DNA from: Mariniblastus sp.
Lineage (GTDB): Bacteria; Planctomycetota; Planctomycetia; Pirellulales; Pirellulaceae
Reading direction: 5' to 3'
NCBI GenBank assembly: GCA_022447555.1
Contig: JAKVBF010000009.1
Coordinates: 62,001 to 126,000 of the forward strand
Length of the DNA: 64,000 nt
Shown piece by piece: positions 13,786 through 54,824 of the stretch (position 1 is the first letter of the stretch; every line of letters begins with the position of its first letter). The translations under genes were made by a program, and so were the position numbers. Below the pieces are notes generated by a model. That model saw nothing but the letters and a program-made list of their open reading frames with translations. It was not told the origin of the DNA and did no database searches.

Positions 13786-15222
13786 TCAGTCGTCCGTTGA
13801 CCCCGTTGGCATGGAATGGTGCCAATGGATGACATCCCGAGAGAGTTGCTCCGACACCACTGGTTCGGAAGAGGCGAGATTTTTCGATTCGGTAGGATCT
13901 AGAGTGATGTCGTAAAGCTGGATTCGCTTGCCATCGTAATCGCATAGCAGTTTCCATCGTCCCTGACGGACCGCCAGATCCGGTAGGTTTTGAAAACCAT
14001 AAAAGCTTTTCCTGTCTGGGGGCCGGCTGAAATAAAGGGGGGCTTGGCGGGACGCTTTGGAATTTCCCAAAAGCGTGGACAGTACGTTTTCGCCATCGGT
14101 CGGCTGTTTGTCTGAAGGTTTGCTGGCCGTCAGTTTTAATAGTGAAGGTGCTAGGTCCATCGCTGAAAAAATCGAACGATCGTTGATCGAACCACAGGAG
14201 CTTTCCTTCATCAATCCAGGACCCCAAGCGATCAGGGATGAACGGATTCCCCCTTCATACAAATGTGTCTTAAAGCCTTTCAATCCTCCCGTTTGGCCAG
14301 CGCCCTGTTCGGGACCATTGTCTGAACAGATCAAGATCAGCGTGTTGTCACGCAACGTCTCATCGGACCGGATGAATTCAAAGAGTCTGGAAAATTGTTG
14401 ATCCATTTCTTCCAGAACGGCCAGATAGAGTTCTCGTTTATTGTTGGTTTTTTTGATCCGCTCATACGACGGCCAGAATGGACTATGGACGTCGTCGGGC
14501 CAGACATTGACATAGAACGGCTTGCCGGCTTTTTGCGCTTTTTTCATAAATGGAATGGCCGCATCGATAAACCCGCCCGTGATTTCTGATCGCTGCATCC
14601 AGGTCACAGGTTCTCCTAGATTAACCGCCTTGCCCCAGATTTGACCTTTCCTCCCCTCCTTGTTGATCGTTAAAGGAAGTAGCTTGGGCCCCATGCCTTC
14701 AAAATTGGTGAGCGATTCATCGAACCCGTATTCCGAAATGAGTGGTGCATCGTCGACGTCGCGTTGACCTCCCATGTGCCATTTGCCGAAATGGCCCGTG
14801 GCATATCCGGCTTGTTGCAGAGTGCGTGCCAGCATCGGGGCCTGTGGGTCTAGCCAGTTTGCCATCCCCCGTGTTTTATTTTTTTCACGGAAGGCCAGAT
14901 AAGACGTAATCTGCCAACGCTGTGGATAGGTACCTGTAGAGATCGCTACGCGCGAGGGTGAGCAGATCGGGGAGTTGACATAAAATTGCTTGAAGGCAAT
15001 CCCCTCCTTTGCCAGCTGATCAATGTTGGGGGTTTCGGCATCCGGATTTCCAAAGCAAGAAAAATCGCCCCAACCCATGTCATCGATGAAAATAAGAATG
15101 ATGTTGGGTGGGGATGTGGATTCGAACGAGAAGAGGGTGCTCGGCGTTACCCCGCTAAGAGCAACAAGCAATATTAGTAAAAAGTAACATCTTGGTATTA
15201 CGAGCCAGTTTTTTGTTTTCAT
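13786..15222 (-). CDS. Exported sulfatase (formylglycine type)
   Basis: A 478-residue sulfatase with an N-terminal signal or anchor (residues about 10-30). NIILIFIDDMGWGD near 40-53 provides the two metal-binding aspartates. CSPSR at about 87-91 is the site where cysteine is converted to formylglycine, followed by GTYPQRWQ. GHFGKWHMGG near 144-153 carries catalytic lysine and histidine residues. Such enzymes release sulfate from sulfated polysaccharides, and planctomycetes carry many. The gene lies downstream of the SelW-like gene on the same strand with a gap of about 80 bases. Confidence 0.93.
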   Translation of the reverse strand: MKTKNWLVIPRCYFLLILLVALSGVTPSTLFSFESTSPPNIILIFIDDMGWGDFSCFGNPDAETPNIDQLAKEGIAFKQFYVNSPICSPSRVAISTGTYPQRWQITSYLAFREKNKTRGMANWLDPQAPMLARTLQQAGYATGHFGKWHMGGQRDVDDAPLISEYGFDESLTNFEGMGPKLLPLTINKEGRKGQIWGKAVNLGEPVTWMQRSEITGGFIDAAIPFMKKAQKAGKPFYVNVWPDDVHSPFWPSYERIKKTNNKRELYLAVLEEMDQQFSRLFEFIRSDETLRDNTLILICSDNGPEQGAGQTGGLKGFKTHLYEGGIRSSLIAWGPGLMKESSCGSINDRSIFSAMDLAPSLLKLTASKPSDKQPTDGENVLSTLLGNSKASRQAPLYFSRPPDRKSFYGFQNLPDLAVRQGRWKLLCDYDGKRIQLYDITLDPTESKNLASSEPVVSEQLSRDVIHWHHSMPTGSTDD

Positions 15223-15301: not shown

Positions 15302-15562
15302 TTAGTCCACGGGATACTGCGATGTTAGAATAGCCCGAATCACTTCCCGATCAGAAGGCCAATGTTTTTTCATGATCATGGCAAGCAAACCTCCTTTTCG
15401 TGAAATGACCTTCTTTTCGTCAACCAACACATCGAATTGACCTCGTGAACCGGTCTCGATGACAGGCTCCTGATCCAGCTCTTTTCGAATCGCGGCAGCG
15501 TAACTCGCTACCTTCGAGATATAGTCTTTTCATATGGGGCAGTGAATGATTTTGATTGTCAT
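15302..15562 (-). CDS. SelW/Rdx-family selenoprotein with in-frame UGA (Sec) codon
   Basis: Read on the minus strand from ATG 15562-15560, the frame gives MTIKIIHCPI, then TGA at 15532-15530, then KDYISKVASYAAAIRK onward to TAA at 15304-15302: 86 residues if UGA is selenocysteine. The order C-x-x-U near the N-terminus, then a helix, then ETGSRGQFDVLVDEKKVISRKGG, then a C-terminal helix matches SelT/SelW/SelH (Rdx) thioredoxin-fold proteins. There the CxxU or CxxC pair is the redox centre and GxFEV-like strands follow. UGA falls exactly at the U position, and the frame stays open for 75 codons beyond. AGGA lies 9 bases before the ATG. A hairpin follows the UGA. A nonsense-mutated CxxC gene is the alternative. 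Confidence 0.85.
15501..15521 (-). promoter_or_regulatory. Candidate bacterial SECIS hairpin
   Basis: Immediately downstream of the UGA in the SelW-like gene the mRNA can fold CTCG with CGAG around a 7-base loop AAGGUAG. The stem extends by two A-U pairs after a U-U mismatch. The loop lies 16-22 bases after the UGA, with its GG pair at 18-19. This is inside the distance known for bacterial SECIS elements, which need a small apical loop containing an early G for SelB binding. The stem is short and the G is third in the loop, so the fit is good but not perfect. Confidence 0.6.
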
Positions 15563-15806
15563 GGATGGTAGTCCTATCGATAAGAATGACTCGTTTGCTT
15601 TGTGCAAAAAGGGGGGGGCGTTTCTCAAAACACGTTATGAGCTTGAAATTGCTACGTTGGTTCGATGTTTTACGAGCGGTGTTTTACAAGGACCGTCAAC
15701 AAGACACTGGCAAACGCCCAGTATCGAGTCAGGACCGTATAAATAAAAAAAAGAAATCATTGGCTCTATGCACCTAAGCATTGCGCGTAAAGCAAGGCGA
15801 TAATTC

Positions 15807-16577
15807 TTACTTACTACGCGAATGCGAAAAAAGCCAGGCGTAGACGCCATCCAATTTCTTGACCTCACCTGGAGCGGTGCCGTGGTTAGCGCCTTCGAAA
15901 AAGGTTGTTTTAATATCGGTCGAACCCAAGTCCTTAAGAGCTCGTTGCATAGCGATTATTCCCTCCACTCGGGGTTTCGAATCGTTCGTTCCTACCATCG
16001 CCCAGATCGGTAATTGGATCATCCCTTCAATGCGGGAGAGATCGGGGATAAAGCCTTTCGGAATAATGGCCGCGAAACGTTCTGGTGAGTGCATGGCCCA
16101 TTCCCAAGTCCCTTTTCCGCCCATACTGTAACCGACGCAATAGATGCGGTTTGGATCGATGGATGGGTTCGTTTTTAGAACGTGGTCTAGCATCTTGTTG
16201 AGCGAGGCAGGATCCCAGTGGCCTTCACTCTGGGGTACCAGGATACTGGTGATCGGCTGTCCGGGTTTCGCGAACCTTTTGACGTCTCCCGTCCATCTGG
16301 CCCGTTCGAGAGTGCGTTTGGATCCTCCCGATCCGTGGAGAAAGATCACCAACGGTTTTTTCTCGTTCAACGTTTTTACCGGAAGATAAAGAAGTGCGCG
16401 CGGGTTGAGACGTTCGAACGCTACGGCGATCTTGTCAGGAACGGTGATCACTTCGAGTCGAAGGTTCCCCCGGATGTCATTAAGCTTGTTCTGGGATTGC
16501 CCCTCGGAGGAACCGCTCAGGCAGAGACTGCACAGAACGAAGGAAAACGAAAGTGAATACCGGCTAGGTGCATTCAT
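15807..16577 (-). CDS. Secreted alpha/beta hydrolase (PHB-depolymerase/esterase-like)
   Basis: A 256-residue exported protein with a signal peptide (about residues 1-27, ending near SEGQS). Residues 75-84 (VIFLHGSGG) form the oxyanion region. YSMGGKGTWEWA near 149-160 is the nucleophile elbow of the LpqC/poly(3-hydroxybutyrate) depolymerase-like and prolyl-oligopeptidase-like group. GTNDSKPR near 196-203 supplies the acid and ANHGT near 231-235 the histidine. AGGAA precedes the ATG. The substrate is probably an ester such as an acetylated or feruloylated polysaccharide. The SelW-like gene lies 244 bases downstream. Confidence 0.87.
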   Translation of the reverse strand: MNAPSRYSLSFSFVLCSLCLSGSSEGQSQNKLNDIRGNLRLEVITVPDKIAVAFERLNPRALLYLPVKTLNEKKPLVIFLHGSGGSKRTLERARWTGDVKRFAKPGQPITSILVPQSEGHWDPASLNKMLDHVLKTNPSIDPNRIYCVGYSMGGKGTWEWAMHSPERFAAIIPKGFIPDLSRIEGMIQLPIWAMVGTNDSKPRVEGIIAMQRALKDLGSTDIKTTFFEGANHGTAPGEVKKLDGVYAWLFSHSRSK

Positions 16578-54631: not shown

Positions 54632-54824
54632 GTTTCTGTTTGGGGCTGCGTTTAAGAGATACCTTGAAGGAACTTCTCGGAAGCTGGTTTTCGACAATTA
54701 CTGTCAAGCATAGAATAATGGATTCTAAACGATCAGGATAGCTGAATCGAAGGTCCCGCCCGGTTTCAGTATTCCGCGTGTGATTCACGGGATGAGGTAC
54801 ATATCATGAAATATTTGCATACTG

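Follow-up and report, generated by a model that had tools for sequence, protein, structure and literature searches.

A SelW-like gene of Mariniblastus sp. whose in-frame UGA codon is very probably read as selenocysteine

On the minus strand of a 64,000-nucleotide stretch of the Mariniblastus sp. genome (the window hereafter), a short frame beginning with ATG is interrupted by a TGA codon, and the question is whether it is a small gene broken by a stop or an intact selenoprotein gene whose UGA codon is translated. The frame (positions 15302 to 15562, minus strand) runs from the ATG to a TAA stop (15302 to 15304) and encodes 86 residues, with a single read-through codon, the TGA at codon 11 (15530 to 15532), inside the motif HCPIU. 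When TGA was read as U, the translation extended from MTIKII to SQYPVD, followed directly by the stop. The TGA thus stands at the U of a CxxU motif, C8-P-I-U11, in which Cys8 (15539 to 15541) is the putative redox partner residue, and 75 codons remain open after it; this is the arrangement that the initial annotation had described. An AGGA located 9 nt 5' of the ATG (15572 to 15575, minus strand) is a possible Shine-Dalgarno sequence. The window was also scanned crudely for TGA codons that have a Cys at a distance of three residues, are preceded by a start five or more codons away and are followed by 50 or more open codons; nine places were obtained, the SelW-like site being one of them. The pattern alone is therefore not decisive, and it is the homologs that decide. 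Elsewhere in the window, a TGA at position 54807 (plus strand) has 9 open codons before it and 366 after it (GMRYISUNIC) and is probably an unrelated stop preceding a gene.

We thus looked at the codon found at this position in relatives. A search with the single protein matched 5 of the 396 genomes of the order, the window genome among them; every match contained one TGA, and in the first four relatives this TGA was at the same codon as in the window. A five-row profile matched 82 of the 241 genomes of the family Pirellulaceae (E<=0.001), and a profile built from 12 rows of the window's kind found matches in 23 of the 392 genomes of the phylum (E<=1e-6). On named contigs, 83 stretches matched a search pattern and 20 loci were confirmed; they include Mariniblastus, other Planctomycetota, a Candidatus Eisenbacteria bacterium, Minicystis rosea, an SAR324 bacterium and gammaproteobacteria. 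One of the named loci (L032) and a same-genus genome share sequences. Once the listed matches of the order, named-contig, family and phylum searches were pooled and duplicates collapsed, 132 distinct loci were obtained (window included), and the codon at the Sec position was TGA in 129 of them, TGC in two and TGT in one. Since the search profiles had C and not U in the Sec column, Cys forms were not disfavoured. No other stop was present from codon -7 to codon +45 around the Sec codon in any of the 132 loci, and TGA occupied this codon in all 12 closest orthologs. The initial annotation had argued that a chance stop at this very codon was unlikely, and the codon counts, with Cys codons in the only three exceptions, bear this out. 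Comparison with the 11 closest orthologs over codons -9 to +66 gave pN/pS values of 0.24 to 0.42 (several dS values being near or at saturation), indicating that the whole frame is under purifying selection. Stops elsewhere in the frames of relatives, which had been named as the sign of a pseudogene, were not what we found: the relatives keep both the UGA and an intact frame. The expected CxxC or CxxU orthologs in other planctomycetes were found as well, with either TGA or a Cys codon.

The UGA form is present in 81 of the 241 Pirellulaceae genomes, so SelW-like selenoproteins are common in this family. One genome (G414) carries three such UGA loci, a short form (L061) and two others (L091 and L099) that group with the long branch described below. 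As for the three Cys loci, one (L107) is a short-form relative in genome G517, and the other two (L143 and L144) are CxxC proteins in genomes that also possess a UGA form. L107 has TGC at the Sec codon though its genome retains SelA, SelB and tRNA-Sec, and its best fold lacks the hairpin described below; a recent Sec-to-Cys change accompanied by decay of the SECIS element is possible.

The most telling local feature of the gene, absent from the initial annotation, is a bacterial SECIS-type hairpin located just after the UGA (15494 to 15512, minus strand). It has a 7-bp stem, GGUAGCG/CGCUGCC, and the loop AGUUA (15501 to 15505), with a spacing of 24 nt from UGA to loop and an energy of -10.1 kcal/mol. 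The rules given in PMC13188914 call for a loop of 3 to 9 nt, a stem of 4 to 16 bp, a G in the first two loop positions, a spacing of 16 to 37 nt and an energy of -7.5 or lower. The window hairpin agrees with them in loop size, stem length, loop G, spacing and energy. According to the same paper, most bacterial SECIS loops contain an N1-N2 pair, which the window loop lacks. Bare 6-bp stems gave -5.5 to -8.4 kcal/mol, some being weaker than the published -7.5. When the 54 nt from the UGA were folded, the same 6-bp stem GURGCG/CGCURC with the loop AGUUA was obtained for the window and three relatives, and a three-base loop with G first for another (L029). The ensemble probability of the six pairs was 0.98 to 1.0 in the window and at least 0.82 in 10 of the 12 orthologs; for two loci (L056 and L058) it was 0.02, the single-sequence ensemble favouring other folds.

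Conservation of the hairpin was apparent at two levels. Among the 12 closest orthologs, four consecutive codons of the hairpin were nearly frozen (GCG, AGT and TAC in 12 of 12, GCT in 11 of 12), and the V codon at its 5' end was GTA or GTG. In contrast, all 17 comparable columns outside the hairpin, where the residue is invariant and more than one codon could encode it, used two or more codons. All 72 stem cells were paired in these orthologs; covariation among them was matched by 203 of 500 shuffles, there being little variation and hence little power. The picture was different for the 93 short-form UGA loci (91 distinct), a set made up apart from the 12 orthologs and excluding the three Cys loci, L091, L099, duplicates and 22 loci of the phylum search. 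In this set 88.1% of hairpin cells were paired, and 43 cells had changed on both sides compared with 10.5 in shuffles. For percentage paired, double-change cells, further pair types and covariation score, none of the 500 shuffles reached the observed value; for the number of pairs changed on both sides, 14 of 500 did. Column composition is preserved in the shuffles and relatedness is not, so that these fractions are not probabilities. The double-change count also exceeded that of all six slid versions of the hairpin. The locus thus offers a comparative case of a SECIS element lying in a coding region, with synonymous positions frozen in one paralog and covarying in the other.

Insertion of Sec also depends on dedicated machinery, and the initial annotation had predicted that SelA, SelB, SelD and tRNA-Sec would be encoded elsewhere in the host. 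All four were found in the genome, which amounts to 4.19 Mb in 62 contigs and is 97.5% complete. The tRNA-Sec (contig C7, 67645 to 67740) scored 68.6 bits, above cut-off, and was called SeC with anticodon tca by ARAGORN. SelB (357.9 bits), with its EF-Tu GTPase domain, SelB beta-barrel and C-terminal winged helix, is encoded at 172533 to 174428 of contig C62, of which the window is a part, about 95 kb from the SelW-like gene. SelA (569 bits) is on contig C11 and SelD (273.2 bits) on contig C3, where it lies behind a pyridine nucleotide-disulphide oxidoreductase domain in a fusion. SelD forms the C-terminal half of this 733-residue protein (L017, 1393 to 3594, minus strand), the oxidoreductase domain forms the N-terminal half, and no stop falls inside the SelD match. 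A search of the genome for a formate dehydrogenase alpha selenoprotein gave four matches, none above cut-off and none with an internal stop.

The same association was seen across the family. SelB (E<=1e-60) was present in 75 of the 81 genomes with the UGA form versus 39 of the 160 others, G517 having been excluded from the UGA set before counting as it has the Cys form only; Fisher's test gave p 8e-26, which ignores relatedness and is not a clean probability. Among the six UGA-bearing genomes without SelB, two (G414 and G504) have SelA and three (G234, G428 and G471) have a tRNA-Sec above cut-off, the tRNA-Sec search having covered these three, G468, G517 and the window genome. In the sixth, G468, which is 80% complete, SelA, SelB and tRNA-Sec were not found at the thresholds used. 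Inspection of the tables by eye showed a short-form SelW-like gene within 10 kb of selB in G418, G424, G517, G353, G240, G282, G513, G083, G393, G129, G385 and G518; the G517 gene is the Cys form and the G518 selB match is a fragment. In G335 a short-form gene lies about 120 bp from selA.

We infer Sec insertion because the anatomy, the conservation and the machinery are all present. SelB with Sec-tRNA(Sec) would recognise the hairpin that follows the UGA and insert Sec at residue 11.

What kind of protein would result? On its own, the window protein falls under the cut-offs of the automatic family models: 19.5 bits versus 22.6 for Pfam Rdx (PF10262), 22.5 versus 34.2 for TIGR02174 and 28 versus 88 for NF041051. 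At E<=0.01, Pfam Rdx matched 11 of the 12 orthologs (best 3.5e-9), and both NF041051 and TIGR02174 matched all 12. One ortholog also matched an rRNA methylase model (E 0.0084), a single-member match that we took as chance. The profile of the 17-row alignment (A4) matched eight SelW/Rdx-type chains of the PDB, mouse SelW included, with E values from 4e-11 to 9e-4; the next row (E 0.1) was an unrelated zinc finger. An AlphaFold model built from this alignment with C in place of U (pLDDT 89.1, pTM 0.79) consists of strand 3-7, helix 13-29, strands 34-37, 43-47 and 50-55, helix 59-64 and helix 71-82. With Foldseek alone, no structure matched this model at E<=0.001, the first five rows being SelW-type structures. 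With a second structure aligner, the six best PDB entries (Z 10.3 to 10.6) were all SelW-related by title or profile search, followed by MIEN1 (Z 7.8) and, lower, by mouse SelW (6.8) and thioredoxins (about 6 to 7). The SelW/Rdx identity first proposed is thus upheld by fold and by profile relation, but the protein belongs to a divergent branch and is not a typical SelW: it is a divergent SelW-like/Rdx selenoprotein.

In the model, the C8-P-I-U11 motif would lie between strand 1 and helix 1 of a thioredoxin-like domain, and C8 and position 11 are invariant in alignments A4 and A7. Given that the product is a selenoprotein, a redox-enzyme role is probable by analogy with the family. Most likely, Sec would make the attack in a redox reaction linked to thiols or glutathione, and a selenenylsulfide would form between U11 and its partner Cys8. 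A selenoprotein that is selenium-binding, chaperone-like or regulatory, and not a redox enzyme in the thioredoxin or glutathione sense, is the less likely alternative. It draws on the lack of a demonstrated substrate and on PMC1088965, which calls the function of SelW-like protein unclear; against it, a CxxU motif in a thioredoxin-like fold and a Sec that is nearly fixed in relatives suggest catalysis.

The fold also bears on whether the UGA is a true stop, in which case the conserved product would be either a 10-residue leader or a downstream protein started internally. Read-through is usually partial, and here it is deduced from comparative evidence, two points that speak for termination. 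However, one conserved domain spans the UGA, with strand 1 and C8 before it and helix 1 and the rest after it, and the three Cys homologs run straight through. We thus rejected termination at codon 11 as very improbable. More improbable still is that a nonsense mutation inactivated a SelW/Rdx gene, or that TGC or TGT was misread as TGA during sequencing. Known Rdx proteins such as 3dex do have CxxC, and a few of the loci do have Cys codons, but 128 of the TGA loci lie in other genomes or contigs without another stop nearby, and the low pN/pS and the conserved hairpin equally contradict both inactivation and error. That suppression or an altered genetic code places Trp or Cys at the UGA is just as hard to credit, and no point in its favour was found: TGA serves as the terminating codon of the frame in relatives such as L026 and L029, the Sec pathway is complete in the genome, and the conserved hairpin would have no evident purpose. 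Taken together, the stretch from 15302 to 15562 very probably encodes a SelW-like selenoprotein, with Sec inserted at UGA codon 11, and what looks like a stop-broken small gene is almost certainly an intact gene for a redox-type protein in which the stop is read as selenocysteine.

The genomic setting gives no further indication of function. A same-strand gene for a sulfatase-domain protein (13786 to 15222) begins 79 nt after the frame, and a same-strand gene with prolyl oligopeptidase/dienelactone hydrolase matches (15807 to 16577) ends 244 nt before it; the SelW-like gene would stand alone and encode a small selenoprotein of the Rdx superfamily. No orthologous-looking neighbour was common to the window and six named relatives (L030 to L035), so the context is uninformative as to function. 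Neighbours were shared among L031, L032, L033 and L035, and L030 and L034 shared none; the single cross-hit was between the sulfatase of the window and an L034 protein (26.5%). The window contains one tRNA gene, a tRNA-Ser, and no Rfam family at gathering scores. Nothing points to mobility of the gene: the protein had no match at E<=0.001 among plasmid and phage records, and when viral contigs were scanned once with the 12-row alignment, three candidate stretches came up and none was confirmed.

We then considered how the window protein differs from the short form, whose outline is CxxUNYxPxA...SKxxxGRFP. Proteins of the window's kind are longer at two places, by one residue after the U and by about seven ahead of the conserved Pro. 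In the window, the added length lies in the segment RKGGLLAMIMKKHW (residues 55 to 68; 15359 to 15400, minus strand), about seven residues longer than in ordinary SelW according to the alignments, and the model places the extra short helix 59-64 there. In a tree of the 132 rows, 30 long rows formed one side of a branch (support 100/99) and the window's 12 rows a branch within the tree (98/92); the tree had 79 columns, an unsettled bootstrap and many weak forks, and only these two branches were used. As the insertion columns are filled in 21 to 22% of rows of a new alignment, below the 30% limit of the tree, they should not be what supports the branch. The long rows were first assigned by eye and residues were counted afterwards. 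The spacing from D44 to P69 was 24 to 26 residues in 28 of the 30 long rows (25 in the window protein), versus 16 to 19 in the other 102 (18 to 19 in 101 of them); the two exceptions among the long rows were L161 (21) and L099 (11, with a diverged tail). The extra residue after the U was found in all 12 rows of the window's kind; among the 18 other long rows 7 had it, and among the remaining 102 none, so it is not a marker of the whole long branch. Sixteen of these 18 rows came from other families of the phylum, and two from G414, which belongs to the same family as the window.

The Sec codon was TGA in all 30 long rows. The window's kind occurs in 12 genomes of the family, and ten of these also have a short-form SelW-like match (E<=0.001); no such match was found at this threshold in the window genome or in G297. 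We lean slightly toward seeing here a distinct SelW subfamily of the phylum, with a segment of about seven residues (a helix in the model) before the conserved Pro and Sec never replaced by Cys in 30 rows. It would include a Pirellulaceae sub-branch with the extra residue after the U and its SECIS moved by one codon, a sub-branch that mostly occurs beside an ordinary SelW-like selenoprotein. The two SelW selenoenzymes would then divide their roles, and the window genome would have the unusual one only. The long-insert branch may deserve its own name; we found no description of it in the open-licence literature, and a description elsewhere is possible. It adds to SelW a branch whose member in the window falls under the cut-offs of curated models and is easy to overlook, and it leaves general ideas on selenium use unchanged.

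Bacterial SelW-like selenoproteins have long been known, and we found little in print on those of the Pirellulaceae. In the open-licence literature, SelW and planctomycetes were brought together in PMC1794560 only, where Planctomycetes are named once and not with SelW, and words beginning with SelW, planctomyc or Pirellula are absent from the main text of the 2026 review PMC13188914. PMC4607533 reports that in epsilonproteobacteria annotation had completely missed SelW genes, and a later GOS survey gives SelW-like as 11.3% of selenoprotein genes (PMC9402790). As for function, PMC1088965 takes the CXXU motif to suggest a redox role and reports that the SelW-like protein was found to interact with glutathione. 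Selenoproteins have been reported in two planctomycetes, P1 and P2 from Porphyra, which like the window genome have complete Sec insertion genes; the selenoproteins named there include FdhA and FmdB, and a SelW-like entry in its S9 Table is possible (PMC4807772).

The window protein resembles the SelW-like selenoproteins described in PMC1088965, PMC1794560 and PMC2398784 in being small and in having a CxxU motif and a UGA followed by a bacterial SECIS element; there, these proteins are abundant in marine samples and have few or no Cys homologs in Sec-using organisms. The wording of PMC1794560 on this point, very few or no Cys homologs, foreshadows the pattern seen here. NF041051 (SelTWH_Campy) and TIGR02174 (CXXU_selWTH) are its best library matches, over nearly the whole length, with scores far under their cut-offs. 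It shares its fold with the bacterial structures 2obk, 2fa8, 3dex, 2oka, 2ojl and 2p0g and with mouse SelW (2npb), at 14 to 24% identity to the six bacterial structures and 20% to mouse SelW, 3dex having CxxC instead of CxxU. What sets it apart from ordinary SelW-like proteins, as represented by the 102 other rows of this analysis and not by the sets of those papers, is the greater length between FDV and the conserved Pro, about seven residues, together with the one residue added after the U.
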